Positions 19,408-37,535 of a stretch of 64,000 bases of DNA are shown here, in pieces. A program made the translations under genes and the position numbers. Within the stretch, counting starts at the first letter, position 1. Each line of letters opens with the position of its first letter. The notes beneath the pieces were generated by a model. It had not been told where the DNA came from, searched no databases, and was given only the letters and a program-made list of their open reading frames with translations. Source of the DNA: Comamonadaceae bacterium (GTDB taxonomy: Bacteria > Pseudomonadota > Gammaproteobacteria > Burkholderiales > Burkholderiaceae_C); the NCBI GenBank assembly GCA_947475685.1, contig CANJNC010000006.1:1-64000 (forward strand). Direction: 5' to 3'.

Positions 19408-19429
19408 AAAAAAAGGGCTGAGCCCTTTT
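19408..19429 (-). terminator. strong intrinsic terminator, overlaps stop codon of the Bug receptor 3 gene
   Basis: AAAAGGGC (19411-19418), loop TGA, GCCCTTTT (19422-19429) is a perfect 8-bp stem. Read on the minus strand it is followed by TTT (19410-19408), making seven T in a row. The stem includes the TAA stop of the minus-strand gene. It lies between convergent operons. Confidence 0.8.
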
Positions 19430-21655: not shown

Positions 21656-21672
21656 TTTCTATCCTTTAAGTA

Positions 21673-22509: not shown

Positions 22510-22526
22510 TTAAAAAACCTCATTTG

Positions 22527-23039
22527 TTAATTAGCCAAAACAGGCTCAATGGTGAAACCTATCCAGCGACCACACAAAACTACACCAAGCCACAAAGTCA
22601 GGGAAATCAAACCAGCCAACCTGGCAGTTCTTGGAATTTGGGACTGCTGAGCCCAGCGATGATGATCTTGGCTGATCAGGTACTGAAAGATCAGCATGTT
22701 GATCCCAGCCAAAACAAGAAGAACCATTTTGAATTGAAAAAAAGTATTTGCTGAATAATTCACTGCATTTGAAATAAATAAAAATACACCACTGATAAGC
22801 GCCAAAACAAACGCAACCCAAGTAAACGGAAGCAGCTCAGAAGATACTTTATTGAAATCACTGCGTCTGAAAGTCAAGCCCAATAAATGCAGGTCAAGCA
22901 TCATGATCGAGCCGAAAACAATGACATCAGATAGAACATGCAAAGACTCGATCATCGGGAAAAGGTAGTCATTTTCACGAATGGCTACCCCAACATTAGA
23001 GTCATTGAGAAATTTAAAAATGTAGCTCAATTCATTCAT
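22527..23039 (-). CDS. membrane protein, DUF6644-like
   Basis: 170 residues with four likely membrane helices (about 30-50, 70-92, 97-120, 140-160). A conserved-looking ESLHVL (about residues 31-36) in the first helix, DLHLLGL (about 49-55), and the C-terminal GRWIGF are shared with the next gene upstream. The first helix His could be a haem or quinone ligand, but this is not known. The family resembles DUF6644 or DUF2214 from memory. Spacing is 17 bp to the downstream secreted-protein gene and 9 bp to the upstream paralogue, so they are one operon. Confidence 0.62.
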   Translation of the reverse strand: MNELSYIFKFLNDSNVGVAIRENDYLFPMIESLHVLSDVIVFGSIMMLDLHLLGLTFRRSDFNKVSSELLPFTWVAFVLALISGVFLFISNAVNYSANTFFQFKMVLLVLAGINMLIFQYLISQDHHRWAQQSQIPRTARLAGLISLTLWLGVVLCGRWIGFTIEPVLAN

Positions 23040-23048
23040 AGTACATAC

Positions 23049-23537
23049 TCAAAGATAAGCGATCCAGCGACCAGCAAAGACAATGCCAACCCAAATCAAA
23101 ATCGATAAGGTGGCCCATAACTTTGAAATCAAAGATACCTGTACACTTGAATTGGGAAAATCTGCGGTAGAAAACACCGTCTGATTGAGATAGCGATAAA
23201 TACTCAACACAATCACCAACAATATCATTTTTATTTGAAAAGCCTCATTGGCCAGAGATCTCGCAGGCTCAGCGATGATCAAAAAAACACCTGTCACCAA
23301 CAAGACTGGCAAGCTGACAATGGCGTTGTATTTAAAACCACTCAAAAAAAGACTATCGCCAAGTTTGTTGGAGATGAGCCTAAAGTTAAAAACCAACATG
23401 GCAATGAGAATGACAGAGATCGCTAAAATATGAAGACTTTGCAAAAACGCAATCAAGTCAGACTTATTTTGAATAGCTTGACTCAACTCCGTATCCTGAA
23501 GTGCTTCACAAAATGCTAAGAGGGCTGGTGGTCTCAA
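23049..23537 (-). CDS. membrane protein, paralogue of the 22527-23039 product
   Basis: 162 residues from a TTG at 23537, the only reasonable start in the open frame (a stop lies about 30 bases upstream). Four likely membrane helices. It shares with its neighbour the first-helix QSLHIL (about residues 34-39), the AFQIKMILL stretch (about 96-104, compare FFQFKMVLL), and the final GRWIAYL. It is the first gene of the six-gene operon down to Bug receptor 3. Function unknown; a two-subunit membrane unit is plausible. Confidence 0.58.
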   Translation of the reverse strand: MRPPALLAFCEALQDTELSQAIQNKSDLIAFLQSLHILAISVILIAMLVFNFRLISNKLGDSLFLSGFKYNAIVSLPVLLVTGVFLIIAEPARSLANEAFQIKMILLVIVLSIYRYLNQTVFSTADFPNSSVQVSLISKLWATLSILIWVGIVFAGRWIAYL

Positions 23538-23738
23538 TTTGATTATGAATGTCTGATGGTATGCTTATCATTTTAAGACCTCCGCGTATCGACACATTGA
23601 TCATCATGTTGGTGAATACCCTTATCAAAGTTCATTTTCATTTGACTTTGTGAGCACACGTCTCGCACTTGAGCTTAACCAAGGCCGGGATCAATATTAA
23701 AATCGTGGCCTTTGAACCAATCGCTAGCGACTCAACAT

Positions 23739-25376
23739 ATGCAATCCAATCCGACCGCGCCGCTCACCCCAGCACTAGAGGTTTTAAGACTTTACAGAAA
23801 AAATGACTTCACACTCTGCGATGCATTGAGCAGTCGACTTGAAAAAGATCCGCAAAAATTGTTTTGTATCTATGCGGGCCAAACCTACACCTGGCAGCAG
23901 TTTCATGACGATGTCAACAAAGCCTGTCACTTGTTTAAAAATCAAGGGATCAAAAAGGGAGACCGATTCGGGGTCATGGCAAGAAATCAATACGCCCACA
24001 TTGTCATTCTTTTTGCTCTGTCTAAGCTTTGCGCAATCATGGTGCCTATCAATCCTGACTTCTCTGTGGGTGAAGCCAGCTACGTGATCAACCATGCAGA
24101 TCTCTTTGGATTGGCACTTGATGAACACGGCATAGACAATGCCCTTTTGGCTATTAAAGAAAAGAATCTAAACCCTTGGCTAATCTCTCTCATTCAAACC
24201 GATAAACAAGCCACTCAAACGATTCCTAAATTCAAGGAACTTTTGGAGACCATGACACCTCAAGCACCATTGGCAACCCAAGCTTTGCCAGATGACACCT
24301 GCATCATCATTTATACATCCGGGACCACAGGTTTTCCCAAGGGCGTGATGCACAGCCAGCGCAGCTTTATTTTGACTGGTGAAGCCTTTGTAGAGCGCGT
24401 CTACCTTCAGCCCAATGACCGAGTAATGATTGTTTTACCCATGTTTCACATGAATGCCTTGTTTTACTCCGTCTCAGGGGTCATTGCCAGCGGGTGCACC
24501 ATGATCATCCAAACTAGATTTTCCGCTTCTGAATTTTGGATTCAAGCCACTCACAACAAGGCCACAGTGGTCAACATCATTGAGGCTGCATGCAACATTT
24601 TAAAGGCACGCTCAAGAAGTGAGTTTCGCGAGGACCATCATTTGCGCTGCGCCTATGGCGTGCGACAAAGCGCACAAGCTGCATTTCGAGACGAATTCAA
24701 AGTACCCTATTTCGTGAGCGGTTACGGCATGACTGAAATTCCGGGCGTGACTTGCAGCCCCTATGGTGGACTGCAAAAGGCAGGAAGCATGGGGCCTGAG
24801 GGCAAACATCCTGATCCAGAGCAAACATGGGCGAAATGCAAAGTTGTGGACGATCTAGGCCAAGAAGTTGCAACTGGTCAAGTCGGTGAATTGATTGTTC
24901 AAACTCCGATCGTGACACAAGGTTACTTTAGAGATGAAGTACAAACTGAGCAAGCGTTTAGAGATGGTTGGTTTTTAACTGGAGATTTGGTCACTTGCGA
25001 TGAAGATGGTTACTATACTTTTGTATCTAGAAAAAAGGACATCATTCGTCGACGTGGAGAAAATATTGCTGGCGCAGAGCTTGATCGCGTGATTTTAGAG
25101 CATCCAAACGTTGCAGAAGTTGCAACCATTGCTGTACCAGCAGAACTGGGTGAAGATGAGATTTTAGTTGCCGTGGTATTGAAAAAAGACTTACACATGA
25201 GCCATCAAGATGTGGCAGATTGGTGTGCCCAAAAACTCTCTGCCATGAAAGTGCCTCGCTTTGTTATTTTCTTGGATGCATTACCCTACACGCCCACCAA
25301 TAAAGTCGCCAAAGCTGTTTTACGCGCCGATGCCTCTTTGAGACAAAAAGCCGTTGATTTACAACTCAAAAAGTAA
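23739..25376 (+). CDS. acyl-CoA ligase (AMP-dependent synthetase), CaiC-like
   Basis: 545 residues from ATG 23739; a TTG at 23712 would add nine residues. Acyl-adenylating ligases couple a carboxylic acid to CoA with ATP. The P-loop YTSGTTGFPKGVMHS is near residue 190-204, the SGYGMTE motif near 327-333, the hinge TGDLVTCDEDGYYTFVSRKKD near 416-436, and the C-terminal catalytic Lys is in TPTNKVAK (near 522-529). The overall pattern is closest to crotonobetaine/carnitine-CoA ligases of the CaiC type, but the acid cannot be told. It is divergent from the six-gene operon and convergent with the thiolase operon, so it has its own promoter in 23538-23711. Confidence 0.86.
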   Translation: MQSNPTAPLTPALEVLRLYRKNDFTLCDALSSRLEKDPQKLFCIYAGQTYTWQQFHDDVNKACHLFKNQGIKKGDRFGVMARNQYAHIVILFALSKLCAIMVPINPDFSVGEASYVINHADLFGLALDEHGIDNALLAIKEKNLNPWLISLIQTDKQATQTIPKFKELLETMTPQAPLATQALPDDTCIIIYTSGTTGFPKGVMHSQRSFILTGEAFVERVYLQPNDRVMIVLPMFHMNALFYSVSGVIASGCTMIIQTRFSASEFWIQATHNKATVVNIIEAACNILKARSRSEFREDHHLRCAYGVRQSAQAAFRDEFKVPYFVSGYGMTEIPGVTCSPYGGLQKAGSMGPEGKHPDPEQTWAKCKVVDDLGQEVATGQVGELIVQTPIVTQGYFRDEVQTEQAFRDGWFLTGDLVTCDEDGYYTFVSRKKDIIRRRGENIAGAELDRVILEHPNVAEVATIAVPAELGEDEILVAVVLKKDLHMSHQDVADWCAQKLSAMKVPRFVIFLDALPYTPTNKVAKAVLRADASLRQKAVDLQLKK

Positions 25377-25407: not shown

Positions 25408-26556
25408 TCACGGCTGAGCACCCAAAATAACTGTGGCTTGGCTTGAAAGCACCCCTCCATTGCCGTGGGCAAGGGCAACCTCACAACCGCTGATTTGTCT
25501 GTCTCCACACTCACCCCGAATTTGTCGAGTCGCTTCAATCAAAAGCATCAGCCCATACATCCCTGGATGACAATAGGACAAACCACCTCCATTGGTATTG
25601 ACAGGACATGAACCACCCGGGGAGATGGCTCCCCCTTGGACAAAACGGCCCCCCTCTCCTTTGGGACAAAAACCCAAATCCTCTAAAAACAAAATGGTAT
25701 TGATGCTAAAAGCATCATAAAGCAAAGCGACATCCACGTCCTTCACGCCCAACTTGGCCATATTGAAAGCCAAAGGACCAGAACGTGTCGCTGCAGTCAC
25801 GGTCAAATCCGGCATATTGGAAATATTCAAATGCGACAAGGCCTCACCCACCCCCAACACATAGACGGGCTTTTTCCTCAAATCGCGTGCACGATCGCTC
25901 AAGGTCAATAGGATGGCGCCACCGCCATCGGAGACCAAACAACAGTCTCTGACCGTGAGCGGATAACTGACCATCTTGGCGCTTAATGCATCCTCTATGC
26001 TTAGCGGTGTCTTCTCCCAAGCAACTGGGTTCTTAAGGGCCCATTGCCTTGCAGAGACCGCAACTTGGGCCAAATGCTCTCTTGTCGTTCCGTATTGATG
26101 CATATGCCTTGCCGCGGCCATGGCATATGCAGCCGCGGGTAGAAATGGACTGTAGGGAGTTTCATAGGGGTTGTACTCCCTTGGAGAGGCCGCAGCACGA
26201 CTCACTGACTTTTGGGTACTTCCATAGGTGATCAATGCCACTTTGCACAATCCTTGCTCCAGTGCCATCATGGCATGCGCCACATGGGTCATGAAAGAAG
26301 CGCCACCGATGTGAGAGTTGTCATGGTAACTTGACTCTAAACCTAAATACTCTTTCAAAGCCAAGGTCGTATAGCGTGTTTGCGTGGAAGCAGAAAATAT
26401 TGCATCAATATCAGATATTTTGAGCCCACTGTCCTCCAAAGCCCTAAGAGTTGCTTGAGCCATCAAGTCGATCGGACTGGTTCCAGGTGCACACAAACCC
26501 AAATCCGACTCTGCAGCTCCGACGATGGCCACACTCGCAGACTTAAGCCCCCTCAT
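25408..26556 (-). CDS. thiolase-fold protein without nucleophilic Cys (Ltp2/SCP2 type)
   Basis: 382 residues. The protein has the thiolase fold order but the usual nucleophile Cys is Ser87 in HIGGASF (82-88). YDAF (280-283), CHPG (329-332) and AHGNGG (363-368, in place of the CxG site) follow the pattern of lipid-transfer protein (Ltp2)-type aldolases. In steroid side-chain degradation, Ltp2 works as a retro-aldolase with a DUF35 partner, and the tyrosine of the YD motif is functionally important. The gene overlaps the DUF35 gene by four bases, which fits such a pair. Last gene of the long minus-strand operon. Retro-aldolase role is inference; thiolase activity looks unlikely. Confidence 0.8.
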   Translation of the reverse strand: MRGLKSASVAIVGAAESDLGLCAPGTSPIDLMAQATLRALEDSGLKISDIDAIFSASTQTRYTTLALKEYLGLESSYHDNSHIGGASFMTHVAHAMMALEQGLCKVALITYGSTQKSVSRAAASPREYNPYETPYSPFLPAAAYAMAAARHMHQYGTTREHLAQVAVSARQWALKNPVAWEKTPLSIEDALSAKMVSYPLTVRDCCLVSDGGGAILLTLSDRARDLRKKPVYVLGVGEALSHLNISNMPDLTVTAATRSGPLAFNMAKLGVKDVDVALLYDAFSINTILFLEDLGFCPKGEGGRFVQGGAISPGGSCPVNTNGGGLSYCHPGMYGLMLLIEATRQIRGECGDRQISGCEVALAHGNGGVLSSQATVILGAQP

Positions 26557-26936
26557 TTTGAGTCTCCTTGGACAAAGACAGGTAAGGCACGGCCCTCCTT
26601 GTCCTTGGACATTTTCATCTTAACTCGCATACCAATACTCACGTGTTCAGGGGGCATCTCTTCGACTCGACTCATCATCCTAAAGCCCTCATCCAAATCG
26701 ATCAAGGCGATGTTATAGGGCTCAAAGCCTTTTAAATGGATCACAGAGGTGGAATACACAGTTCCCTCGCCCTTTGAAATTTGCCAGCTCAAAGTCTCTC
26801 CTGTTTGGGGCGCCACAATTCTGGGATAAAAAACTGCTTGACCACTCGGTGTGACTTGATAGGCCAACTTGCCTTCTTCACAAAATTGTTTAAATACACC
26901 CAATGGGGACTCGGCGGTTAAATTGAATGTACTCAT
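26553..26936 (-). CDS. OB-fold/DUF35 partner protein lacking the Zn-ribbon cysteines
   Basis: 127 residues from ATG 26936. An ATG 15 bases upstream lies in ATGGAG, which is the ribosome-binding site for 26936, so the shorter start is preferred. DUF35 proteins have an N-terminal rubredoxin-like Zn ribbon and a C-terminal OB fold. Here the ribbon region (about residues 25-45: FYPRIVAPQTG) keeps the PR motif but has none of the four Cys. The OB part, GEGTVYSTSVIH (about 56-67) to ALIDLDEGFRMMSR, is normal. It overlaps the thiolase-like gene by four bases, the usual Ltp2-DUF35 arrangement. Confidence 0.8.
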   Translation of the reverse strand: MSTFNLTAESPLGVFKQFCEEGKLAYQVTPSGQAVFYPRIVAPQTGETLSWQISKGEGTVYSTSVIHLKGFEPYNIALIDLDEGFRMMSRVEEMPPEHVSIGMRVKMKMSKDKEGRALPVFVQGDSK

Positions 26937-26982
26937 TTTAAAATTCTCCATTTGTATATTTCAACTGACTTGCCAGAGAAAG

Positions 26983-27453
26983 TCACGGCACTTGTACCGA
27001 CTCTCTCATTTGCTCAAGTTGCGCCCTTGCATGAAGCGTCAACTTATCTAGACAGCGCTCAAAAACAATCCTCTCTTGCAAGGTCAACACTTTAAGCAAG
27101 GCCTCATTGCGATCAATGGCACTAGGGAATGCACGCTCAAAAGTTGCTAACCCCTTGGCTGTCAAAAAAAGCAATATGCCCCTTGCATCCTTGGCATCTA
27201 TCACGCGCTTGAGATAGCCACGTTCAATCAATGAGGAGACCATTCGACTGGCTTGACTTTTATCCACATCCACCTCAATCGCTAAACGCTGCAAAGATAC
27301 TTTTTCCAGTTGCCCCAAAAGCCCAATGATCCTCCACTCTCTGGGCGCCAATTGAAACTCAACTTGGTTTAAATGGGTCGCAATTTTGCTTGACAAATTT
27401 GCCAATACATTAATGCGGTATGTCAGCAAGTCTTTAAAATTTTTTATTATCAT
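26983..27453 (-). CDS. MarR family transcriptional regulator
   Basis: 156 residues, winged-helix dimer. The helix-turn-helix is about residues 53-75 (SLQRLAIEVDVDKSQASRM), the wing about 84-97 with the DAKDARG pattern (D-x-R type), and long helices at both ends for dimerisation. MarR proteins of catabolic operons are usually repressors relieved by an aromatic or acyl-CoA ligand. It lies in the operon between an acyl-CoA ligase and the DUF35 gene. A perfect 14-bp palindrome in the operon's promoter region (33998-34011) is a candidate site. Confidence 0.87.
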   Translation of the reverse strand: MIIKNFKDLLTYRINVLANLSSKIATHLNQVEFQLAPREWRIIGLLGQLEKVSLQRLAIEVDVDKSQASRMVSSLIERGYLKRVIDAKDARGILLFLTAKGLATFERAFPSAIDRNEALLKVLTLQERIVFERCLDKLTLHARAQLEQMRESVQVP

Positions 27454-27482
27454 GGATCACGCTCATAAAAATTTCAATTCAT

Positions 27483-29120
27483 CTAACTCCTTGGAGCTAG
27501 GCTCCAAAGTTCAATCGCATAGTCAATAAGCTTATTTTTTTGCACCTTTGAGCTCCCAGTCATACCAATGCGGTCAAAGGAATCCACAAATGCCACATAC
27601 TTTGGCACTTTGAAGTTTGCACATCGCTCTTTGCACCAAAGAATCAAGTCCTCTTCAGTGACATTTTGAACCCCATTTGAAATCACAAAAGCAGCGCAGA
27701 CTTCACCAAGCCTTTGATCGGGCACCCCCACGACTTGAGCTTGTTGTATGCCGGGGTGAGCGTGCAACACCTCTTCCACTTCTGATGGAGCAACGTTTTC
27801 CCCTCCGACTCTAAAGATATCCTTTAAACGCCCCACCATTCTGAATCGCTTGTCCGCGTCACATTCGCCCAAATCACCTGTTTTAAGCCAACCGTCTGAA
27901 GTAAATGCTTTGGCCGTTTCCCTGGGCATGTTGTAATAGCCCTTCATGACGTTCCAGCCCTTGACTTGAATTTCTCCAGTTTCAAAGCCATTTACCTCCT
28001 CATCGGTCAACGGGTCGGCCAAGCGGACTTCTACACCAAGCAGGGGCTTTGCAAAACCAGCTTTGCGAAGCTCAAATGGCTCATCGCAATGTGAAAACAA
28101 AACATTCGGAGAAGCCTCAGATTGCCCATAGGCATTGCAAATACTTTTAAGCCCCATTTGATCGTGAATTTTTTGCATGACACCAGGATCGACTGCTGCC
28201 CATCCACCCGTTAAAAAGAGACGATTTGCATCAAAATCGCTATCTCCAATCAAAGACAGAAAAATAGTGTCATTTCCTGAAATTAAAGTACATTTTTCCT
28301 CAAAGAGTACTTTTAGATTTTCTTTGACATCAAACTTGGGTAAGGTCAACAAACAGCAGCCTGTATTCAAACTCACCAATATCGACAACGTACTACCGGC
28401 CACATGAAAATACGGGCGAATGCTGAAATACCGATCTTGACTGCTCACTTTCATTCGACTGCCAACAGCACGTGCATTGAGCAGCATATTGCTATGTGTC
28501 AGCATGACCCCCTTTGGAAAAGAGGTGGTCCCAGAGGTGAATTGAATCAATAGCACATCGCTAGGTGTGACCTCACCACTCCTTAATTCAAACTCTTGGT
28601 CTGTCACGCCGAGACCCAAATTCATGAGTGCGTGCATGCCCATGACGCCATCCATCTGAGGACTGATTGAGCATGAGATACAGTGCCTTAATTTCGGCAA
28701 CACTTGTGCCGTAAAAGCGCTTCCAAGTGCGGGCTCCACCGATTTGAGCATGCTTGCAAAATCTATGTTTAAAAACTGATCTATAAAAAAAAGCACCTTG
28801 ACATCTGATTGCTTTAAACAGTATTCAAGCTCATTTTTTTTAAATCGAGTGTTGATCGGTACGGTCACTGCTCCTATCATTGCGCAACCAAAGAAAATTT
28901 CAATCCATTGAGAACAGTTACCAAGCAAGATGCCTACATGGTCACCTCTTTGCAACCCTAACGCAAGGAGCGCCTTTGCCAAGTTTTTACTGTTGTCCAA
29001 GGTTTGCTGCCAAGTGCGTCTTGCATCAGGACCGACATAGGATTCTTGATGGGGATATTTGAACGCGGTCTGAGTCAAGGCATCCTTTAAACAAATGGGA
29101 TGAAGATCCACTTCACTCAT
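27483..29120 (-). CDS. acyl-CoA ligase (AMP-dependent synthetase), FadD3-like
   Basis: 545 residues. The P-loop FTSGTTSFPKGVMLTHSN is near residue 194-211, the acyl pocket YGQSEASP near 325-332, the hinge KTGDLGECDADKRFRMVGRLKD near 413-434 and the C-terminal lysine region TGSSKVQKNKL near 522-532. It activates a carboxylic acid as the CoA ester. The operon context (crotonases, CoA-transferase, thiolase-like and DUF35 proteins, Bug receptor) points to catabolism of an acid taken up from outside. Its start ATG overlaps the upstream crotonase stop by four bases (ATGA). Substrate unknown. Confidence 0.87.
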   Translation of the reverse strand: MSEVDLHPICLKDALTQTAFKYPHQESYVGPDARRTWQQTLDNSKNLAKALLALGLQRGDHVGILLGNCSQWIEIFFGCAMIGAVTVPINTRFKKNELEYCLKQSDVKVLFFIDQFLNIDFASMLKSVEPALGSAFTAQVLPKLRHCISCSISPQMDGVMGMHALMNLGLGVTDQEFELRSGEVTPSDVLLIQFTSGTTSFPKGVMLTHSNMLLNARAVGSRMKVSSQDRYFSIRPYFHVAGSTLSILVSLNTGCCLLTLPKFDVKENLKVLFEEKCTLISGNDTIFLSLIGDSDFDANRLFLTGGWAAVDPGVMQKIHDQMGLKSICNAYGQSEASPNVLFSHCDEPFELRKAGFAKPLLGVEVRLADPLTDEEVNGFETGEIQVKGWNVMKGYYNMPRETAKAFTSDGWLKTGDLGECDADKRFRMVGRLKDIFRVGGENVAPSEVEEVLHAHPGIQQAQVVGVPDQRLGEVCAAFVISNGVQNVTEEDLILWCKERCANFKVPKYVAFVDSFDRIGMTGSSKVQKNKLIDYAIELWSLAPRS

Positions 29121-29872
29121 GGCTTGTTGTTGCCACTGAATTTAGAAATAGCCGCTTTCCAATCTGTTTTTTGTAAATTCTCTTGGATGGCCAAAAGTTC
29201 AACGGCCATAGCTCCTTCACGCGTTGTCTCTAAACCCTGATCGATACATTTTTTAGTAAGCCTTACTGTCAATGGGTTGCATTGACTGATATGCTTTGCA
29301 AGCGCATCGGCTTGAGGCTCAAGATCAGCCAATTCATAAATGTGATTGACCAAGCCCAACTCCAAGGCTTCTTGCGCATCAAATGTTCTGGATGTAAAAA
29401 GCAACTCTTTGGCCATGCGACGACCAACGATGCGAGGAAGGCGTTGGGTTGCACCTACAGTTCCCCAACCAACTTCTGGATATTTGAATTTAGCCTGAAG
29501 GCTTGCGATGATCCAATCACTGGCAGCCGCAATTTCGCACCCCGAACCAAAAGCAGCACCTTGAACCACACAGATCACAGGCATTTGAAGGGCCTCAATG
29601 CTTGCATACGCTGTGAAACCGGCCACTCTGCGAGCAACAATTTCTTGTTCATTCATGTGGGGGCGCTCTTTTAAATCCGCTCCTGCGCAAAACACGTTCC
29701 CACGTGCATTGATTTTGACCACATGGACTTGCTCGTTGTCGTTGAGTAAGCGGCATGCTTGAGTCAACTCAATACACATTTTTAGATTCAAGGCATTTTT
29801 GCTCTCTTCACGGCTAAGGCTCAAGGTTGCAATGTGATCTTCAATGATCAATTCAATCGTTTCAAAATTCAT
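29117..29872 (-). CDS. enoyl-CoA hydratase/isomerase family protein 1 (both catalytic Glu present)
   Basis: 251 residues, crotonase fold. The two Glu used for water addition in enoyl-CoA hydratase are present: E113 in GSGCEIA and E133 in YPEVGWG. The CoA-binding loop FCAGADLKER (61-70) and GATQRLPR (140-147) are intact. It therefore should be a true 2-enoyl-CoA hydratase. It overlaps the ligase gene downstream and lies 18 bp after the Bug receptor gene. The crotonase at 32160 has a different residue at one of these sites. Confidence 0.88.
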   Translation of the reverse strand: MNFETIELIIEDHIATLSLSREESKNALNLKMCIELTQACRLLNDNEQVHVVKINARGNVFCAGADLKERPHMNEQEIVARRVAGFTAYASIEALQMPVICVVQGAAFGSGCEIAAASDWIIASLQAKFKYPEVGWGTVGATQRLPRIVGRRMAKELLFTSRTFDAQEALELGLVNHIYELADLEPQADALAKHISQCNPLTVRLTKKCIDQGLETTREGAMAVELLAIQENLQKTDWKAAISKFSGNNKP

Positions 29873-29890
29873 GTGAGTAACCTTACTTGA

Positions 29891-30874
29891 TCAATCCATC
29901 AACTTCATGCCAGTAGACCTGATCAAGTCCTGCATCGCCTTGGTGTCATCTTGCAAGAACTTCGATGTTTCTGCCCGATTCAAATAAAAAATCTCACCGT
30001 TTTGCATTGCCATAGCTGATTGAAACTCAGGACTGTTTTGCACAGCCACAAATGCTTTGGCCAATTTTTCAATCACCACAGCAGGCGTATTTGCAGGAGC
30101 AGCAAGGCTGTACCAACTGCCCGATACAAATCCAGAAAGACCCGCTTCTGTAAAGGTAGGTACATCAGGAAGGGTCGGTGAGCGCTTGCTGCTGGCAAAG
30201 GCCAAGGCCTTGAGTTGACCATTCTTAACATACTGCTGAACGACTGAAATATTTAACATGCCCACGGGCACCGATCCTGCAATCATGTCAGTGATTGCAG
30301 GCCCCGCACCACGGTATGGTATGTGCGTCATCTCGATGCCGGCTTTGTACTTGAACATTTCCGCACCTATGTGAGGTGAGCTGCCCATACCAGCTGAGCC
30401 ATAACTCAACAGACCAGGCTTGGATTTGGCCAGAGCCACAAACTCCTTTAAGTTGTCCACTTTGACACTGGGATGAACAGTCAAAATATTGGGTATATTG
30501 CAAATGATTCCAATGAATTCAAAACTCTTTAATCCATCGTACGATACATTTGTGGCCATGGGTGTTACCACATGAGCAGCCGATGTACCCATCAACAACG
30601 TATAGCCATCGGCAGGAGCTTTTGCTACGAAACTTGCACCAATAGAGGCTCCCCCTCCTGCCTTATTTTCAACAACCACACTTTGACCCAGTTGATCACC
30701 CAAGACTTTGGACATGACTCGACTGATCATGTCTGTTGGACCTCCAGCCGCATAGGGGTTAATCAAGACGATGGGCTTATTGGGAAAGATGGCTTGCGCC
30801 CAAACCAAAGGTGTACTCAGCGCCATCAGCGCCATCAGCGCTAAATTGAACCCTGTATTGCATAATTTTCTCAT
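29891..30874 (-). CDS. Bug-family (TctC) periplasmic solute receptor 4
   Basis: 327 residues. Signal peptide with cleavage near VWAQ (about residue 27); the hydrophobic core contains the repeat ALMALMAL encoded by repeated 9-bp units (30818-30841). Family marks: IVLINPYAAGGPTDMISR, VENKAGGGASIGASFVA, HIPYRGAGPA, DVPTFTEAG. It is placed inside the CoA-thioester operon, between a CoA-transferase and a crotonase, so it probably supplies the acid this operon degrades. No membrane component is nearby. Confidence 0.9.
   Translation of the reverse strand: MRKLCNTGFNLALMALMALSTPLVWAQAIFPNKPIVLINPYAAGGPTDMISRVMSKVLGDQLGQSVVVENKAGGGASIGASFVAKAPADGYTLLMGTSAAHVVTPMATNVSYDGLKSFEFIGIICNIPNILTVHPSVKVDNLKEFVALAKSKPGLLSYGSAGMGSSPHIGAEMFKYKAGIEMTHIPYRGAGPAITDMIAGSVPVGMLNISVVQQYVKNGQLKALAFASSKRSPTLPDVPTFTEAGLSGFVSGSWYSLAAPANTPAVVIEKLAKAFVAVQNSPEFQSAMAMQNGEIFYLNRAETSKFLQDDTKAMQDLIRSTGMKLMD
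30818..30841. repeat. 9-bp tandem repeat (2.7 copies) in signal-peptide coding sequence
   Basis: CAGCGCCAT at 30818-30826 and 30827-30835, then CAGCGC at 30836-30841. It codes on the minus strand for the ALMALMAL part of the Bug receptor 4 signal peptide. A change in copy number would keep the frame and only alter the hydrophobic core by three residues. Confidence 0.8.
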
Positions 30875-30914
30875 ATCGGTCTCCTTGAATATTGTTACTC
30901 TTGATTAAAAAAAA

Positions 30915-32111
30915 TCAGATCGCATGGTCTGCCCTCAACGCCTCAATGGCTCTTGGATCTAAACCCAAAAGATCGCCCAACACCTCATCGGTATGCTCTC
31001 CCAATAAGGGTGGATAGCTTGCCTGAACAGGGTCAAAGCCTTCAAACTTAAAAGGCACTTTCAAATATGGAAATACTCCAATCAATGGATGGGAAAACTC
31101 GCCAACCACTTCCCGAGCTTGAACGTGCTCATTGCTCAATATTTCATCTACTTGCAAAATGGGCCCCGCTGGAACACCTACTGCATCGCAGCGACGACAC
31201 ATCTCATCGCGGTCCAGCAAAGAGATCGCACTCGACAAGCCTTTTAGCACTTCATCGCGCCGCTTGATGCGATTTGAATTTTTGGCCAAGGTTGGATCGT
31301 TCGCCCACGCCTCTAGGCCTAACAAATTGCAAAGGGGTACCCAATGCTGATCTGCGCCAGTAATTTGCACCCATTTACCATCTGCGCACACGAAGGCAGA
31401 TGAAGGAATTCGCCCTGGATGCTCTGTGCCCATTCTTTGTGGCACCTCGCCTAAAGCAAAGAACCGTGCCGCAGCCAAGGACAAAAGACCGACTTGACCA
31501 TCCAACATGGAAAAATCAACGTGGGCTCCAACTTTGCTGGTTTGGCGTCCAATGATCGTTGAGAGAACTGCAATGCACAACCACAAACCGGAGGTCAAAT
31601 CTGCCACGGGCAAACCTGGCTTTACCGGCCCTCCCCCTCGCTCACCCGTCAAACTCATGATTCCACCCATTGCCTGAAACACGGTGTCATATCCTTTTCT
31701 AGACGCATAGGGCCCCGTTTCGCCAAAACCGGTGCAAGAGATGTAGAGCAACAGAGGATTGACCGCATTTAAGGACGCATAGTCAAGCCCATATTTCTTA
31801 AGCGTACCAACTGGAAAATTCTCCAGCACCACATCAACTTTTGTTGACAGTTGCTTGATCAATTGTTGGCCTTGCGCGTGTCGCAGATTGACTGTAATCG
31901 ATTTCTTTGTTCGATTGAACGCCATAAAATAAGCTGAGACGGACTCTTTTTCACCCTTTACAAAGGGCTCATAACCACGGGTTTCATCGCCTTGAATCGG
32001 TTGCTCAACTTTGATCACCTGCGCACCGAGTTCGGCCATGATCATGCTTGCAAAGGGTCCAGCCAAAACTCTTGACAGATCCAATATTTTGATTCCCTCT
32101 AGTGGCCTCAT
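30915..32111 (-). CDS. CoA-transferase, class III (CaiB/BaiF/Frc type)
   Basis: 398 residues. Class III transferases move CoA between carboxylates through a catalytic Asp. Seen: the N-terminal GIKILDLSRVLAGPFASM (about residues 5-22), VIKVEQP (33-39), NRTKKSITVNLRH (68-80), DVVLENFPVGTL (93-104), GYDTVFQAMGGIMSLTG (about 140-156) with the likely catalytic Asp near 142 or the following stretch. The C-terminal half carries the usual AREVVGEF segment. Together with two ligases in the region there are several routes to a CoA ester. It lies 40 bp upstream of Bug receptor 4 in the long operon. Confidence 0.9.
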   Translation of the reverse strand: MRPLEGIKILDLSRVLAGPFASMIMAELGAQVIKVEQPIQGDETRGYEPFVKGEKESVSAYFMAFNRTKKSITVNLRHAQGQQLIKQLSTKVDVVLENFPVGTLKKYGLDYASLNAVNPLLLYISCTGFGETGPYASRKGYDTVFQAMGGIMSLTGERGGGPVKPGLPVADLTSGLWLCIAVLSTIIGRQTSKVGAHVDFSMLDGQVGLLSLAAARFFALGEVPQRMGTEHPGRIPSSAFVCADGKWVQITGADQHWVPLCNLLGLEAWANDPTLAKNSNRIKRRDEVLKGLSSAISLLDRDEMCRRCDAVGVPAGPILQVDEILSNEHVQAREVVGEFSHPLIGVFPYLKVPFKFEGFDPVQASYPPLLGEHTDEVLGDLLGLDPRAIEALRADHAI

Positions 32112-32159
32112 GCACTCACCTCTTTTTTAGTGTACAGCCCTTGCTGGAGTGGGTTTAAT

Positions 32160-32897
32160 TCAAACATGTGTTTTGGCCGCTTGAAAACCTCGCATCATGA
32201 TGTTGGCATCTCGACCGACTTCAAGCGCTTGTGAAAGACTCAAATCCATTGCTCGGTAAAATGTCCGCTTAGTGGCGGCCATTGCAATGGGGCTCCAAGC
32301 CGCCAAACTACGGGCACATTCGATCGCAGTAGACAGAACTCGCTCAGCAGGCACGACCTGATTGGCCAGACCATACTCATGGGCCTTTAACCCATCGATA
32401 GGCTTTGCACTCGCTACCAATTCAAACGCTTTTTTAGGTCCAAGTTGTCGCACCAAGTTGGCCAATACAACAGCAGCAACAATACCATGTTTGAGCTCTG
32501 GGTAACCAAATTTTGCATTCTCTGCAATCACCACCATGTCGCAGGCCAAAGCCAAGCCTGCACCGCCTCCTAAAGCGTTTCCCGTCACGGCAGCAATGAC
32601 GGGTTTAGAAATTTTTGAAAACGACAAATGCAAAGCCATTGTTAAATCGGCGCGAGCTTGAACTGCTTGCGAGTCTTGAGGCGTCAAGGATGAAAACTCG
32701 GTGGTGTCCGCACCGGCACAAAACGAGGGTGCTTGACCCACCAGTACCAAAGACCGAACCAGAGGATCAAACTCACTTGCAGTGATTGCGTCCAATAGCT
32801 GTTGAGTAAGATCGGTGTTCAAAGCATTGTGCTTTTGCGGGCGATTCATGGTCAATACCAAAACGCCATCTGTTTTTTCGCTCAATAATACATTCAT
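32160..32897 (-). CDS. enoyl-CoA hydratase/isomerase family protein 2 (one catalytic Glu missing)
   Basis: 245 residues from ATG 32897, chosen because AAGGA lies seven bases before it; a TTG at 32915 is upstream. The crotonase fold is complete: CAGADTTEF (60-68), ALGGGAGLA (109-116), GYPELKHGI (131-139). The first catalytic Glu of hydratases is Gly114 here (GGAGLA instead of GGCELA), while E134 remains. Such enzymes are often isomerases, dehalogenase-like or other crotonase-fold types. It follows the NPD-type flavoprotein gene by 21 bp. Confidence 0.87.
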   Translation of the reverse strand: MNVLLSEKTDGVLVLTMNRPQKHNALNTDLTQQLLDAITASEFDPLVRSLVLVGQAPSFCAGADTTEFSSLTPQDSQAVQARADLTMALHLSFSKISKPVIAAVTGNALGGGAGLALACDMVVIAENAKFGYPELKHGIVAAVVLANLVRQLGPKKAFELVASAKPIDGLKAHEYGLANQVVPAERVLSTAIECARSLAAWSPIAMAATKRTFYRAMDLSLSQALEVGRDANIMMRGFQAAKTHV

Positions 32898-32918
32898 GTT
32901 TTTATCCTTAATCAATAT

Positions 32919-33875
32919 TCAGTCTTGATGACTCAAGATTAAAATTCTTTGCGTCGCATTGTTCAACTCTTGCACCAATTGCGCCATCAGCGCTTTGACG
33001 CTTAAAACATCCTCAATCAAACCCGCGCTTTGACCCAGTTCAACCTTGCCCCATTGCATATCACCCTCTAGCGCAGCTTTTTTTAAGGTCCCGTGCTTGA
33101 AAAGTTCAGAAATTTGGTCTTGGTCTAAACCATCTTTTTCAGCTTGTATCACAGCTTGAGCAAAAGCATTATTGATCATTCGAACCGGCTGCATGCTACG
33201 ACCAACCATCAAGGTCTCGTGTACCCGAGTTTTTAAGACCTGCTGCTTGTAATTTTCATGAACCCATGCTTCTTGTGTCATTAAAAATCTTGTGCCCAGT
33301 TGAACGGCATCTGCACCCAAAGCAAGTAAAGAAGCAATTCCCCAACCATCGGCAACGCCACCACCCGCGATAACTGGAATAGTTATATTTTTAAGCACGT
33401 GCCTGACGTTGATCAAGGTGCTGACATCATTGCCTGGCGGATGTCCACCAGCCTCCGCACCCACGACGACCACAGCGTCTACCCCAGCTTCTTGCGCTTT
33501 TAAGGCATGCTCTAAAGAGGCTACGACATGAAACCACAAGATACCCTGATCTTTGAATGCCTGAATATGAGGCTTGGGACCACCTTGCGATGCGATCACA
33601 ACAGGTACTTGATGCTTCAGCGCAAGCGATAAAAAGTCTCTTGACTTGGGACCGTAAAGGGGTATGTTTAAACCAAAAGGATGCAAACTTGCTTTTTTTA
33701 ATTTCAGCAATTCTTGCTCCAAATCGTCCACATACATGGGCCCAGCGGCCAATACACCTAAGCCTCCCGCATTGGAAACAGCTGCGGGCAAGGCTGCACT
33801 TGAAGAGGCCCAGCTCATGCCCGCTTGAATGATCGGGTGCTCTATGCCGATCAATTTGGTTAATTTCGTTTGCAT
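32919..33875 (-). CDS. NPD/nitronate monooxygenase-like flavoprotein
   Basis: 318 residues from ATG 33875 (MQTKLTKLIGIEHPIIQAGMS); in-frame ATGs at 33890 and 33947 give longer forms with a non-conserved tail. This is the FMN TIM-barrel family of 2-nitropropane dioxygenase. Landmarks: PIIQAGMSWASS (about residues 14-25), VSNAGGLGVLAAG (33-45), VVVGAEAGGHPP (about 138-149), IPVIAGGGVADGWG and GADAVQLGTRFLMT. Related proteins are often annotated as nitronate monooxygenase but many in CoA-ester operons act as enoyl reductases or oxygenases. First gene of the nine-gene minus-strand operon, divergent from doxX-like gene. Confidence 0.82.
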   Translation of the reverse strand: MQTKLTKLIGIEHPIIQAGMSWASSSAALPAAVSNAGGLGVLAAGPMYVDDLEQELLKLKKASLHPFGLNIPLYGPKSRDFLSLALKHQVPVVIASQGGPKPHIQAFKDQGILWFHVVASLEHALKAQEAGVDAVVVVGAEAGGHPPGNDVSTLINVRHVLKNITIPVIAGGGVADGWGIASLLALGADAVQLGTRFLMTQEAWVHENYKQQVLKTRVHETLMVGRSMQPVRMINNAFAQAVIQAEKDGLDQDQISELFKHGTLKKAALEGDMQWGKVELGQSAGLIEDVLSVKALMAQLVQELNNATQRILILSHQD

Positions 33876-33997
33876 CACCGCATTATGCATAAATAGTTGT
33901 TTTTTGCAACCATTTAATACCCTGATTGCAAGCACGCTTAACTTCATTCTCCATCAACAATTCAATGCATGAATGAACACATAGGTAAGATCCCTTA

Positions 33998-34056: not shown

Positions 34057-34563
34057 ATGAACTCAAATACAAGCGAGAAAAGCATAGACCTCTCAAGCGA
34101 TCAGGATAAGAATCAGGATCACATCTCACCCGAACTCTTCATTCCACAACTTGCCTCTGTTTACAAACGCTTAGAGCCCTTATCTTGGCTCATTGTCCGT
34201 TGCGCATGCGGCTTGATTTTGGCAGTCCATGGTTGGGGGAAAATTGCAAAGGGTGCAGAGGTGGTCGCACCAAATTTTGAAAAACTGGGGTTCACTCCAG
34301 CACTTGAAATCGTATACTTACTTATTTTCGTGGAGTTCTTTGGCGGATTGTGCGTGGCCATGGGACTCTTTACCCGTTTTTTTGCTTTGGCCATCACCAT
34401 CGAAATGGGGGTGATCTTTTTGACTCAATACCTACCCAATGGTTTTTCTTGGCTTAACCGCGGCTATGAGTTTGTATTGCTTTGGGGACTGATTGCTTTG
34501 GCCATTGCGCTAAGGGGCGGAGGACCTCTGTCTTTGGATAGAAAAATCGGTCGTGAACTATGA
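34057..34563 (+). CDS. DoxX family membrane protein
   Basis: 168 residues with four likely membrane helices (about 48-66, 85-105, 110-130, 140-158). The first helix region RCACGLILAVHGWGKI and FVEFFGGLCVAMGLFTR are characteristic of DoxX/DoxD-like proteins. Their function is poorly defined; some take part in thiosulfate oxidation or in redox stress. A 40-residue polar N-terminus precedes the first helix. It is the first gene of a plus-strand group with Bug receptor 5, a family-3 binding protein and Bug receptor 6. Confidence 0.75.
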   Translation: MNSNTSEKSIDLSSDQDKNQDHISPELFIPQLASVYKRLEPLSWLIVRCACGLILAVHGWGKIAKGAEVVAPNFEKLGFTPALEIVYLLIFVEFFGGLCVAMGLFTRFFALAITIEMGVIFLTQYLPNGFSWLNRGYEFVLLWGLIALAIALRGGGPLSLDRKIGREL

Positions 34564-34628
34564 GGTATCGCTTTGTCCCTCAGATCTGAAATTGCTACAC
34601 AGTCTCATCAACATTTTTTCATCGCATT

Positions 34629-35600
34629 ATGATCAAAAACAACCTTCTTGCAATAACCATTTCTATCTCTTTTTCACTCATTGGCTTGACTGCATACGCC
34701 CAAGAAAATTGGCCTGAACGCCCCGTCAAACTCATCGTCTCCTCCTCTGCAGGCGGGGGAACAGACATGTACGCACGCATGCTTGCACAATCTTTGAGTG
34801 ACTCCTTCAAGCAGCAGTTCATTGTAGACAATAGGCCAGGAGCCAGTGGCAACATAGGGGCCAGTGCGGCCGCCAAATCTCCTGCCGATGGATACACCTT
34901 TTTAGTGTCTGCCAATACCTCTCTCACGATCAATGGCAGCCTTTATAAGAACCTCAGCTACGATGCTGAAAAAGATTTTATCCCCATCGTTCGTGCTCTG
35001 GGCCCCTTGGTGATTGTGGTTCACCCCAGCTCTAAAATCAAAAGTTTACAAGACTTGATAGAGATCGGCAAACGCGAACCCAATAAATTATCCTTTGGCT
35101 CCGCTGGGACAGGGAGCACCACTTATTTGGGTATCAGGATGTTAGAGGAAAAAACCGGAGCAAAATTTTTGCATGTTCCTTACAAAGGTGTTGCGCCAGC
35201 TTACCAAGACTTGCTGGCTGGGCAAATTCAATTCATGATGCCTGATGTCGCCTCTGGATTGCAGTTGATCAAATCGGGAAAAATCATCCCCATTGTGAGC
35301 GAATACAAAACCCCCCTCATCCCCAACTTACCCAACATGTCTGATGCGGGCTACCCCGAGGTCAATACCAACAGCTCTTTCAGCTTGGTCGCGCCCAGTG
35401 GTACACCACCACCGATCATTGAAAAAATGCACAAAGAACTGATGTCAATCACCAAGTCAGCCGCCTTTTCTAGCAAAGTCGAAGCGCAAGGGCTGATTGC
35501 TGAAACTGAGTCTTTAAGTGGTTTATTTAACTCGATGAAAAAAGAACGCGACAACTATGCCACCTTTATCAAACGAAACGCAATTGTGCCCTCTGACTAG
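34629..35600 (+). CDS. Bug-family (TctC) periplasmic solute receptor 5
   Basis: 323 residues. Signal peptide MIKNNLLAITISISFSLIGLTAYA, cleavage before QENWPERPV. Family marks: VKLIVSSSAGGGTDMYAR, VDNRPGASGNIGASAAA, HVPYKGVAPA, NLPNMSDAGYP. It follows the DoxX-like gene on the same strand and precedes a family-3 binding protein by 33 bases. Ligand unknown. Confidence 0.88.
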   Translation: MIKNNLLAITISISFSLIGLTAYAQENWPERPVKLIVSSSAGGGTDMYARMLAQSLSDSFKQQFIVDNRPGASGNIGASAAAKSPADGYTFLVSANTSLTINGSLYKNLSYDAEKDFIPIVRALGPLVIVVHPSSKIKSLQDLIEIGKREPNKLSFGSAGTGSTTYLGIRMLEEKTGAKFLHVPYKGVAPAYQDLLAGQIQFMMPDVASGLQLIKSGKIIPIVSEYKTPLIPNLPNMSDAGYPEVNTNSSFSLVAPSGTPPPIIEKMHKELMSITKSAAFSSKVEAQGLIAETESLSGLFNSMKKERDNYATFIKRNAIVPSD

Positions 35601-35633
35601 CTCTTACCGCTTGATCAACAACTTCAATTCAAT

Positions 35634-36449
35634 ATGAACTCTCCAACCTTTATCTCAGCCATAGGATGTCTTTTTCTGAGTTGCTCTTGGACGATGGCGA
35701 TGGCCGATCGGCTCGATGAAGTCTTGGCGCGAGGTGTTTTAAAAGTGGGCGTGAGCGATACCACGCCCCCATTTAGCTTTAAAAATCAAAATGAACAGCT
35801 CGATGGCTATGACATTGACTTGGTAAAATCGGTGGCCAAAAGAATGAACCTCAATCTAGTCATGACGCCTGTGAACAGCGCACAAAGAATTCCATTGTTG
35901 CAAGAAGGACAATTGGATTTTGTAGCAACCTCAATGACGCGTACCAAAGACAGGCTCAAAGAAATTGACTTCAGTTATATTTACTTTGTAACTCCCCACG
36001 CCGTGATTGTAAAGAACACCTCTTCTATCACCTCCATCAAGCACCTTGAAGGTAAATGGGCAGCCTCTGTCAACACCTCCACTGCCGGTGGCAATTTACT
36101 CGACGCACAACCCTTGGTGAAGATCAAGTATGTTCGAGATTACTTTCTTGCTTTTTCTGAATTAAAAAATGGACAGGTAGATGCCTTTACCACCGACGAA
36201 ACCGTCTTGTCCGCGATCTTGAAAGAAGATGGTCATCCTGAGCAATACAGGTTCTTGCATGATTTCACAAAGTCCAGAGATGTGGGGTTTGCTTTAAAAA
36301 AAGGGGAGGACCGATTCAAAGCTTTGGTCAACCAAAAACTCCTGGAGATCGAATCTTCTGGTGAAGCCCTTGAAATTTGGAACAATTGGTTTGGCACTAA
36401 AGCACAACAACCCATTGCACGTAATTTTAAGATCACGGCAAGCTATTGA
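35634..36449 (+). CDS. extracellular solute-binding protein, family 3 (amino-acid ABC type)
   Basis: 271 residues. Signal peptide with cleavage after MAMA (about residue 23). Family-3 landmarks: VLKVGVSDTTPPFSF (about 36-50), GYDIDLVKSVAKRMN (about 58-72), LQEGQLDFVATSMTRTKDR (about 88-106), DFSYIYFVTP (about 111-120), VDAFTTDE (about 181-188). Proteins of this family bind amino acids or small organic acids for an ABC importer. No permease or ATPase gene is present in the window, so it is an orphan and may supply a distant importer. It stands between two Bug receptor genes. Confidence 0.86.
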   Translation: MNSPTFISAIGCLFLSCSWTMAMADRLDEVLARGVLKVGVSDTTPPFSFKNQNEQLDGYDIDLVKSVAKRMNLNLVMTPVNSAQRIPLLQEGQLDFVATSMTRTKDRLKEIDFSYIYFVTPHAVIVKNTSSITSIKHLEGKWAASVNTSTAGGNLLDAQPLVKIKYVRDYFLAFSELKNGQVDAFTTDETVLSAILKEDGHPEQYRFLHDFTKSRDVGFALKKGEDRFKALVNQKLLEIESSGEALEIWNNWFGTKAQQPIARNFKITASY

Positions 36450-36521
36450 TTGATTTAAAACTATGATGCTTTATCAATCTTATATTTGAAATTACCTCTC
36501 AACCCAACAAGACTTGAGTTC

Positions 36522-37535
36522 ATGCTGCAACAAAAAACACCCTTTCTAGGTTTTCAAAAACTATGCTTTTTCGGGTTTGCGACTGCGCTATCTTTGGGAT
36601 GCTTTGCTGCTGGTAATTCTGCAACCTTGGTCAGCGATTTTCCCAATAAACCGATCAGATGGATTGTTCCCACCGCACCCGGAGCAGGCACGGACTTCAC
36701 AGCGAGAAAATTTGCACAAATTGCAAGTGAAGCTTGGCAGCAGTCGGTGATTGTCGATAACCGCTCAGGTGCCTCTGGCATGATTGGGCTGGATTTAATT
36801 GCCCAAGCACCTGCCGATGGATACACCATGGGTTTTATCAGCGTCTCTCAATTCATTGATGCTTTGCTGTTGCAAAAGTTCAGCTTCGATCCCTCCAAGG
36901 ACTTCACACCGATCAGCATTTTGGCTTCCACGCCTTTGGTCTTGGTGGTCAATGCCACATCGGGTTTGAATTCATTGCCAGCATTGCTGGCGTTTGCCAA
37001 ATCCCATCCTGGCGAAATAAGTTATTCCTCTGGCGGCAGTGGAGGTTTGACGCATTTGGCCATGGAGGTATTTTTGAACAAGTCGGGTATTCAAGCCACT
37101 CACATCCCTTATAAAGGTTCGGGACCTGCATTGGTTGATCTCTTGGCCTCTCGCGTTCAAATGACCTTCTCAACGCCTCCAGCGGTGTTACAACACATTA
37201 GAACCAATCGGCTCAAACCCTTGGCCATGGCCACGCTGATCAGGTCGACATTGATGCCCGATGTAGCGACCTTTGGTGAACAAGGTGTTCAAGGTGTCGC
37301 AATTGGTACTTGGTATGGTCTGATTGGACCCGCCCATATGCAAAGCGAGTTGGCTGAAAAAATAGCAAGAACCATTGCACAAGCAGCAAAGGGGGCAGTT
37401 GTAAGAGAGAATATGCAGTCCCAAGGCATTGAAGCTCAAACTAGCACGCCTGCGGAATTCAGCCGCTTATTGGCTACAGAGAGAAGTCAGTGGAATGAGG
37501 TCGTTAAAACCATTGGCTTTAAGCGGGAACAATAA
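36522..37535 (+). CDS. Bug-family (TctC) periplasmic solute receptor 6
   Basis: 337 residues from ATG 36522; a TTG at 36486 would add 12 residues. Signal peptide MLQQKTPFLGFQKLCFFGFA... with cleavage near CFAA/GNSA. Family marks: IRWIVPTAPGAGTDFTAR, VDNRSGASGMIGLDLIA, HIPYKGSGPALVD, DVATFGEQGV. The sixth Bug gene in 25 kb and the last gene of the accessory region on the plus strand. Ligand unknown. Confidence 0.87.
   Translation: MLQQKTPFLGFQKLCFFGFATALSLGCFAAGNSATLVSDFPNKPIRWIVPTAPGAGTDFTARKFAQIASEAWQQSVIVDNRSGASGMIGLDLIAQAPADGYTMGFISVSQFIDALLLQKFSFDPSKDFTPISILASTPLVLVVNATSGLNSLPALLAFAKSHPGEISYSSGGSGGLTHLAMEVFLNKSGIQATHIPYKGSGPALVDLLASRVQMTFSTPPAVLQHIRTNRLKPLAMATLIRSTLMPDVATFGEQGVQGVAIGTWYGLIGPAHMQSELAEKIARTIAQAAKGAVVRENMQSQGIEAQTSTPAEFSRLLATERSQWNEVVKTIGFKREQ

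Follow-up and report, generated by a model that had tools for sequence, protein, structure and literature searches.

We analyzed a 64,000-nucleotide stretch of DNA from a Comamonadaceae bacterium (assembly GCA_947475685.1, contig CANJNC010000006.1, positions 1 to 64,000; here called the window), in which nine minus-strand genes at positions 25408 to 33947 form a real, conserved cluster for the catabolism of an organic acid. Five of them make up a core that we found in Burkholderiales, in Alphaproteobacteria, and in a Rhodococcus: an NPD flavoprotein, a crotonase (ECH2), a class III coenzyme A (CoA)-transferase, another crotonase (ECH1), and an acyl-CoA ligase. In its widespread form, the core is joined by a gene of the 3-hydroxy-3-methylglutaryl-CoA (HMG-CoA) lyase family, whereas in the window it is joined by a pair of genes for a thiolase-like protein and a DUF35 protein. 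Our preferred reading, to which we give about even confidence on sequence grounds, is that the operon serves the catabolism of a probably unsaturated, beta-substituted acid and that the pair took over the cut made by the lyase.

Distribution of the core with the lyase gene or the pair

Among 22 core loci, 17 carried a gene of the HMG-CoA-lyase family and no DUF35/thiolase-like pair, and 5, the window included, carried the pair and no lyase gene; within the fetched stretches, none had both and none had neither. The core was often accompanied by a MarR regulator gene and sometimes by a Bug receptor gene. Three loci lacking the rest of the core were dropped from this count (L190 and L191, with only ECH2 and the lyase gene, and L210 from Agrobacterium, with ECH2 alone from the core). 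Genome G359 was counted once despite having its core split over two contigs (L171 and L204, the second with Bug, ECH1, the ligase, the lyase gene, and MarR). The NPD gene of the Gemmobacter locus lies some 4.5 kb downstream. G1021 has its ligase and NPD genes about 6 kb off, on the opposite strand.

Many of the loci came from genome sets searched with ECH2. Among 399 genomes of the family (E ≤ 1e-60; scoring limited to six candidates per genome), our own genome and six others matched; four of these (G068, G210, G439, and G394) held the core with the lyase gene, and two (G162 and G457) held ECH2 and the lyase gene only. Twelve records of a plasmid collection matched, and 11 were examined (record H8, Shinella WSD5-1, was left out): 10 carried the core with the lyase gene, and the Agrobacterium record had no core. 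The 10 are from Polaromonas, Cupriavidus, Bosea, Rhodococcus, Gemmobacter, Paracoccaceae, Sinorhizobium (two), and Shinella (two). One further core locus, with the lyase gene, was found among 398 genomes of the phylum, our own included (G1021), and none beyond our own among 369 genomes of the class (E ≤ 1e-50); both counts are lower bounds, as the six to seven best candidates per genome were scored.

Within the genus, 84 genomes (our own included) were screened for a thiolase-like match of at least 90% and a CoA-transferase match of at least 84% on one contig. Five genomes (G000, which is our own, G331, G335, G356, and G349) have the nine-gene order together with a convergent ligase gene, and the proteins of the other four are 74 to 94% identical to those of the window. 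An orthologue of the lyase gene (E ≤ 1e-70) was present in 2 of the 84, G328 and G359, which are the genus genomes carrying the core without the pair inside the operon, and in none of the five. No lyase-family gene matched at E ≤ 1e-6 in the part of the window used, and no orthologue at E ≤ 1e-70 in our own genome, where the best homologue is 35% identical, versus 61 to 64% among Burkholderiales orthologues. The operon of G328 reads NPD-ECH2-CoA-transferase-Bug-ECH1-ligase-X-MarR, with X a 316-amino-acid protein of the lyase family (PF00682, 124 bits; NF004283, 262 bits against a cutoff of 246). Its gene lies 13 bp past the ligase gene and overlaps MarR by 4 bp; in the window, the ligase-MarR space is 29 bp. 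Most Burkholderiales loci of the lyase type likewise have this gene between the ligase and MarR.

The lyase-family protein is itself a variant (L172:14148-15098 and relatives), whose catalytic loop reads GGHP and is four residues longer by an insertion. It keeps RDGLQ in all 16 rows of its alignment and GGHP in all 15 readable ones. Since GGHP replaces the usual GGCP, HMG-CoA is probably not its substrate.

We built a FastTree phylogeny from concatenated NPD, ECH2, CoA-transferase, ECH1, and ligase segments of 21 loci (midpoint root). The five pair-bearing loci formed one clade (support, 1.000) nested inside the lyase-type loci, with G328 as its sister (1.000) and G359 next (0.802). Because of this nesting, the form with the lyase gene is probably the ancestral one, with a single probable gain of the pair; the pattern looks like a single nonorthologous replacement of the lyase gene. 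An earlier reading of this DNA, made from the sequence alone (the sequence-only reading), had treated the nine genes as one unit; as an ancient unit the set does not hold, with the pair added later to a core whose widespread form includes the lyase gene. A second tree, of 125 rows of the thiolase-like protein, grouped the five sequences together (1.0), then with L011, L012, and L049 (0.933), and then with the genus's free-standing pairs (0.963). A ligase gene stands alongside those free-standing pairs in all seven loci examined (L173 to L179), and for this reason the pair probably came from a free-standing unit of ligase, DUF35, and thiolase-like genes. A thiolase-like relative of at least 69% identity is present in each of the seven genus genomes that carry the core, compared with 12 of the 84 genomes overall (chance of this overlap, 1.7e-7, uncorrected for relatedness and genome size).

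Along the strand from NPD to the thiolase-like gene, the intergenic gaps are 3, 48, 40, 18, −4, 29, 31, and −4 bp. An open reading frame check, Pfam, and NCBIfam returned the coordinates and families that the sequence-only reading had given, including the short gaps and the two 4-bp overlaps, and the gene order recurs in the four further genomes of the genus. Two of these, G331 and G356, include L009 and L010, which alone had the whole order among the best 80 loci of at least 560 thiolase-like relatives (an undercount, as many of the 80 are short). Both share the order, the strand, and both overlaps with the window. The dN/dS ratios were 0.036 to 0.106 against L009 (nine of nine genes) and 0.026 to 0.066 against L010 (the six genes with computable dS, which was saturated for Bug, the ligase, and MarR). 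Purifying selection acts on all nine genes. Neither promoter-like sites (23, versus 20.4 in shuffles; standard deviation [SD], 4.5) nor terminator-like sites (15, versus 17.5; SD, 4.3) exceeded the shuffles; we infer a single transcript for the nine genes.

The coordinates given in the sequence-only reading are correct for the nine genes but leave out a second ligase of the adenosine monophosphate (AMP)-forming type (23712..25376, plus strand; PF00501). Convergent with the operon, it adjoins the thiolase-like gene in all five genomes with the nine-gene form. A 3' fragment 78% identical to it lies upstream of NPD in L171. Searches of the open-license full texts of PubMed Central (PMC), which leave subscription papers outside their coverage, turned up no account of a pathway with this gene set, in line with the statement that none was known.

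Active site of the pair and alternatives to a replacement

The thiolase-like protein (25408..26556, minus strand) has the thiolase fold, belongs to the PRK06158 subfamily of NCBIfam (NF004811, 598.6 bits; cutoff, 421), and is our candidate retro-aldolase. Its partner (26553..26951, minus strand; PF01796, 64.3 bits; cutoff, 27.1) is an OB-fold DUF35 protein. Gly85 of the thiolase-like protein aligns with the nucleophilic cysteine of 7yvy, and Gly85, YDAF at 280 to 283, Cys329, and His330 are invariant in 80 of 80 rows, the window included. A wider alignment of 125 rows has glycine at the nucleophile position in 124, and 120 share the Gly/YDAF/His set, the five exceptions being paralogues from our own genome, which holds seven other thiolase-like relatives. 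In the DUF35 protein, Val33, Ser36, Ala47, and Thr50 align with the four cysteines of 6htj. The window protein thus has none of the four cysteines of the Cys-x2-Cys-x10-Cys-x2-Cys zinc finger, and none of 51 relatives has a cysteine at position 50.

The sequence-only reading had called the two genes an aldolase pair. The glycine at the nucleophile position and the apparent replacement of an HMG-CoA-lyase-family gene both favor this, making an aldolase more likely than a thiolase; we rejected thiolase membership for want of the nucleophilic cysteine (Gly85 in 80 of 80 rows). It is improbable, in our estimate, that the protein acts with DUF35 as a thiolase, decarboxylase, or acyltransferase that dispenses with the usual cysteine. 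Such an activity would suit His330, which corresponds to the histidine of the thiolase GHP motif (tyrosine in Ltp2, glutamine in Sal), and genuine thiolases or C-acylases occur among the other DUF35-thiolase pairs (7PXP, 6ESQ, and 5M3K, according to excerpts of PMC12329534). It sits poorly with the near-universal glycine in both alignments and with the lyase family of the gene that was apparently replaced.

The protein had also been called Ltp2-like, which is apt for the fold and superfamily but not for the residues, which differ, or for the zinc ligands of its DUF35 partner, which are gone. In CtSal, Tyr302 and Cys304 are catalytic, together with Gln352, and TcLtp2 has a YDHF motif with Tyr344 (excerpts of PMC12329534). 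The aligned residues of the window protein are tyrosine, alanine, and histidine; compared with Ltp2 and Sal, the catalytic base would be retained and the acid would differ. We rejected Ltp2 membership on YDAF and His330 in place of YDHF and Tyr344 (80 of 80 rows) and on the lipid-transfer protein model NF005892 (229.5 bits; cutoff, 469). Sal membership was rejected as well: the tyrosine and the glycine are present, but the equivalent of Cys304 is alanine. For Sal, we used PDB chain 9myr, presumably CtSal to judge from its YDCY residues.

A steroid or bile acid side-chain operon with Ltp2 or Sal would share the fold and the DUF35 partnering, and a FadD3 model scored 369 bits (cutoff, 657). NPD proteins, crotonases, and FadD3-like ligases occur in steroid clusters too. 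The low score for the Ltp2-type model, the different residues, and the absence, from the nine genes, of a MaoC hydratase and of a pair of acyl-CoA dehydrogenases make this very improbable. A steroid pathway was not supported by these comparisons, in a genome not searched for steroid-ring genes.

We then compared the neighborhoods of the 80 DUF35/thiolase-like loci with a background of twenty 20-kb stretches, all from our own genome. Ligases were found at many of the loci (AMP type at 25 of 80 and adenosine diphosphate type at 23 of 80, versus 0 of 20 in the background for each), as were crotonases (31 of 80 versus 2 of 20) and acyl-CoA dehydrogenases (18 of 80 versus 1 of 20). NPD (14 of 80) and MaoC (10 of 80) were absent from the background stretches, and SDR proteins were present at 16 of 80 loci versus 3 of 20 stretches. 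Another arrangement, seen in L031, L032, L034, and L040, combines the pair with two acyl-CoA dehydrogenases, a ligase, and a relative of ECH2 (42 to 46%) that also lacks the first crotonase glutamate (GGGCAL).

Several observations weigh against a takeover of the lyase step by the pair. The mutually exclusive pattern of lyase gene and pair is not independent replication, because the swap is one evolutionary event. G328 and G359 carry a separate DUF35/thiolase-like pair (69 to 72%) beside its own ligase, and five more genomes of the genus have pairs without the core. Since the pair coexists with the lyase gene in G328 and G359, it may serve another pathway; its co-occurrence with the core thus cuts both ways. 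Four more HMG-CoA-lyase homologues (E ≤ 1e-24) are encoded elsewhere in our own genome and could act in trans; at least two of them keep the usual GGCP loop. The operonic lyase, as a GGHP variant, is not certain in its own reaction. No residue of the thiolase-like protein matches the acid of Ltp2 (tyrosine) or Sal (cysteine), and His330 is the thiolase histidine as well. Finally, the CoA-transferase is not clearly enriched at DUF35/thiolase-like loci (11 of 80 versus 3 of 20 in the background; 0.19 versus 0.15), and Bug is not enriched.

One alternative is that the pair stands beside the core by chance and serves another acid, the lyase step of the core having been lost or being supplied by a paralogue elsewhere. 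The free-standing pairs with their own ligase and the four homologues in our own genome speak for it, and we consider it unlikely but the most serious competitor. The pair, however, lies 31 bp from MarR, with its overlap and order conserved in five species under purifying selection, and the lyase orthologue is missing from exactly these five among the core-bearing genomes of the genus. The paralogues in our own genome reach only 31 to 35% identity, and in at least two the catalytic loop is a different one. The aldolase idea gains independent comparative support, though from a single event.

Core enzymes and proposed route

The first core gene encodes a FabK-like flavin mononucleotide protein, NPD (32919..33947, minus strand; PF03060, 202 bits), whose nearest solved structures are of the FabK type. 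It scored 277 bits with the FabK model TIGR03151, under the cutoff of 453, and has an EAGGHP motif in 20 of 21 rows (the remaining row is a gap); it is a probable enoyl-CoA reductase. ECH2 (32160..32915) and ECH1 (29117..29872), both on the minus strand and both PF00378 members, had been read as crotonases of a route that includes hydration. Crotonase-type enoyl-CoA hydratases use two glutamates. In 21 of 21 rows, ECH1 has both of them, together with a WGTVGATQR loop that is shortened; it is a probable enoyl-CoA hydratase. In ECH2, the first glutamate is glycine (GGGAG) and the second is retained (YPE), again in 21 of 21 rows, so that it is probably an enoyl-CoA isomerase instead of a second hydratase.

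Activation with CoA, also part of the sequence-only reading, is supported. The class III CoA-transferase (30915..32111, minus strand; PF02515, 368 bits) keeps the aspartate of a PxADL/PxSDM motif in 21 of 21 rows; its best NCBIfam match, succinate-glutarate CoA-transferase, reached 326 bits, under the cutoff of 750. The AMP-forming ligase of the core (27483..29120, minus strand; PF00501 and PF13193) fell below every NCBIfam cutoff. The MarR-type regulator is encoded at 26983..27453 (minus strand; PF12802/PF01047).

We propose that the acid would be activated by the ligase or ligases or by the CoA-transferase, after which ECH2 would shift a double bond into conjugation and ECH1 would hydrate it to a 3-hydroxyacyl-CoA. 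The thiolase-like/DUF35 pair would then cut this by a retro-aldol reaction to a carbonyl compound and a short acyl-CoA. NPD would probably reduce an enoyl-CoA at some stage. In the widespread form, an enzyme of the HMG-CoA-lyase family, a TIM barrel, would make the same cut; in the lineage of the window, its gene is gone and the pair is in its place. Seen directly are the genes, their order and conservation, the missing lyase gene, and the active-site residues; we infer from sequence each reaction, the order of the steps, the class of substrate, and the equivalence of the pair's reaction to that of the lost enzyme. The nine genes include no acyl-CoA dehydrogenase and no 3-hydroxyacyl-CoA dehydrogenase, which fits an acid that is already unsaturated and a cut by aldol cleavage instead of thiolysis. 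The cut may be of the aldol type because the hydroxyl is tertiary, as in the HMG-CoA lyase reaction. The same absences, and that of a cysteine thiolase, tell against a generic fatty acid beta-oxidation cluster with nothing special about it, as do the subfamily-specific residues kept across two phyla. All nine families are common in Burkholderiales, and several NCBIfam matches are generic enoyl-CoA hydratases; we nevertheless judge such a cluster to be quite improbable.

Uptake, the remaining step that had been claimed, finds little backing. The Bug/TctC solute receptor (29891..30874, minus strand; PF03401, 231 bits) has the same position in all five genomes with the nine-gene form. Several loci of the lyase type also have it there, and others lack it. 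The receptor stands without membrane subunits: TctA had no match on the contig of the window (C6), and the three TctA genes of the genome are on C131, C48, and C71 (TctB was not searched). Bug/TctC receptor genes number at least 150 in this 3.77-Mb genome (314 candidates), and a single one therefore says little. Bug genes were no denser at DUF35/thiolase-like loci (2.11 per 20 kb; present at 53 of 80) than in the random stretches (2.55 per 20 kb; present in 16 of 20), and we rejected the receptor as a clue to the substrate.

Lyase-type operons of Alphaproteobacteria (L202, L205, L207, L208, L209, and L211) have varying sets of neighbors, among them a class III aminotransferase, an acetylpolyamine-amidohydrolase-like protein, a polyamine-type ATP-binding cassette transporter, an aldehyde dehydrogenase, and a GMC oxidoreductase. 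The precursor may accordingly be an amine or an alcohol; as a substrate clue, these neighbors indicate no single compound. In the window, genes for DoxX and for three solute-binding proteins (34057-37535) diverge from NPD, and parts of this set lie beside the operon in L167 to L170. On the other side are tandem MmgE/PrpD genes (16607-19395), also present in L010, and a row of genes for DUF6152, an unassigned, secreted-looking protein of 278 amino acids, and two DUF6644 membrane proteins (21221-23537), which also adjoin the operon in G356 and G349. The genes for an alpha/beta hydrolase and a Bug protein (19428-21206) form a pair that is about 51% and 42 to 50% like pairs within other betaproteobacterial DUF35/thiolase-like loci (L029, L033, L036, L041, L042, and L045).

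Tentatively, and with somewhat less confidence than in the takeover itself, we regard the pair as a further acyl-CoA retro-aldolase (Gly85/Tyr280/His330, with a zinc-less DUF35) that replaced a TIM-barrel GGHP lyase variant in an undescribed pathway for beta-branched or beta-substituted acids of Proteobacteria and Actinobacteria. If this is true, two unrelated folds make the same cut in the same operon, the paired operons offer a built-in control in which both enzymes cut the same substrate, and the catabolic route, not described before, spans two phyla. Such pairs are common, the thiolase-like protein having matched in 153 of 299 genomes of a family sample (E ≤ 0.001), and they are usually annotated as acetyl-CoA acetyltransferases; the characterized aldolases compared here act on steroid side chains. 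If the pair replaced the lyase in a fixed context, a large subfamily annotated as thiolases probably makes retro-aldol cuts.

Comparison with known systems

The nearest solved relative of the thiolase-like protein is the structural-genomics "Thiolase" 4U4E (chain 4u4e_A, 386 bits), which has a YDSF and an HP motif. Unlike the window protein, it has serine and threonine at the positions of Ala282 and Cys329, and its listing assigns it no function. A functional parallel is the ibuprofen retro-aldolase/thiolase IpfD/IpfE, of which we take IpfE to be a DUF35 protein. Once CoA has been attached, this thiolase-type pair makes a retro-aldol cut that releases propionyl-CoA, but it acts after a ring dioxygenase; it is compared here by description, not by sequence (excerpts of PMC9195938).

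Among the side-chain aldolases, the steroid C3 enzyme TcLtp2-ChsH2(DUF35) (6OK1, 147 bits) shares the thiolase fold, the DUF35 partner, the lack of a nucleophilic cysteine, and the tyrosine of YDxF. In contrast, the window has YDAF instead of YDHF, His330 for the catalytic Tyr344, no zinc cysteines in DUF35, and no steroid context. The bile acid C5 enzyme CtSal-CtShy has the same fold and partnering, glycine for the nucleophilic cysteine, and the YDxx tyrosine; here, the window differs in having alanine for the catalytic Cys304 and histidine for Gln352. CtSal-CtShy also has a MaoC-DUF35 fusion, whereas DUF35 in the window is stand-alone and zinc-less.

HMG-CoA lyase represents, by NF004283, the family of the apparently replaced gene, although it has GGCP where that gene has GGHP and four inserted residues. 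The lyase-family operons on plasmids of Cupriavidus campinensis, Bosea sp. F3-2, Shinella, Gemmobacter fulvus, and Rhodococcus opacus differ from the window in having the GGHP-loop gene and no DUF35/thiolase-like pair, and those of Alphaproteobacteria and Rhodococcus also differ in gene order. Their records give no function. Like the window, they have the five core genes with the same crotonase signatures, often with MarR and sometimes with Bug.

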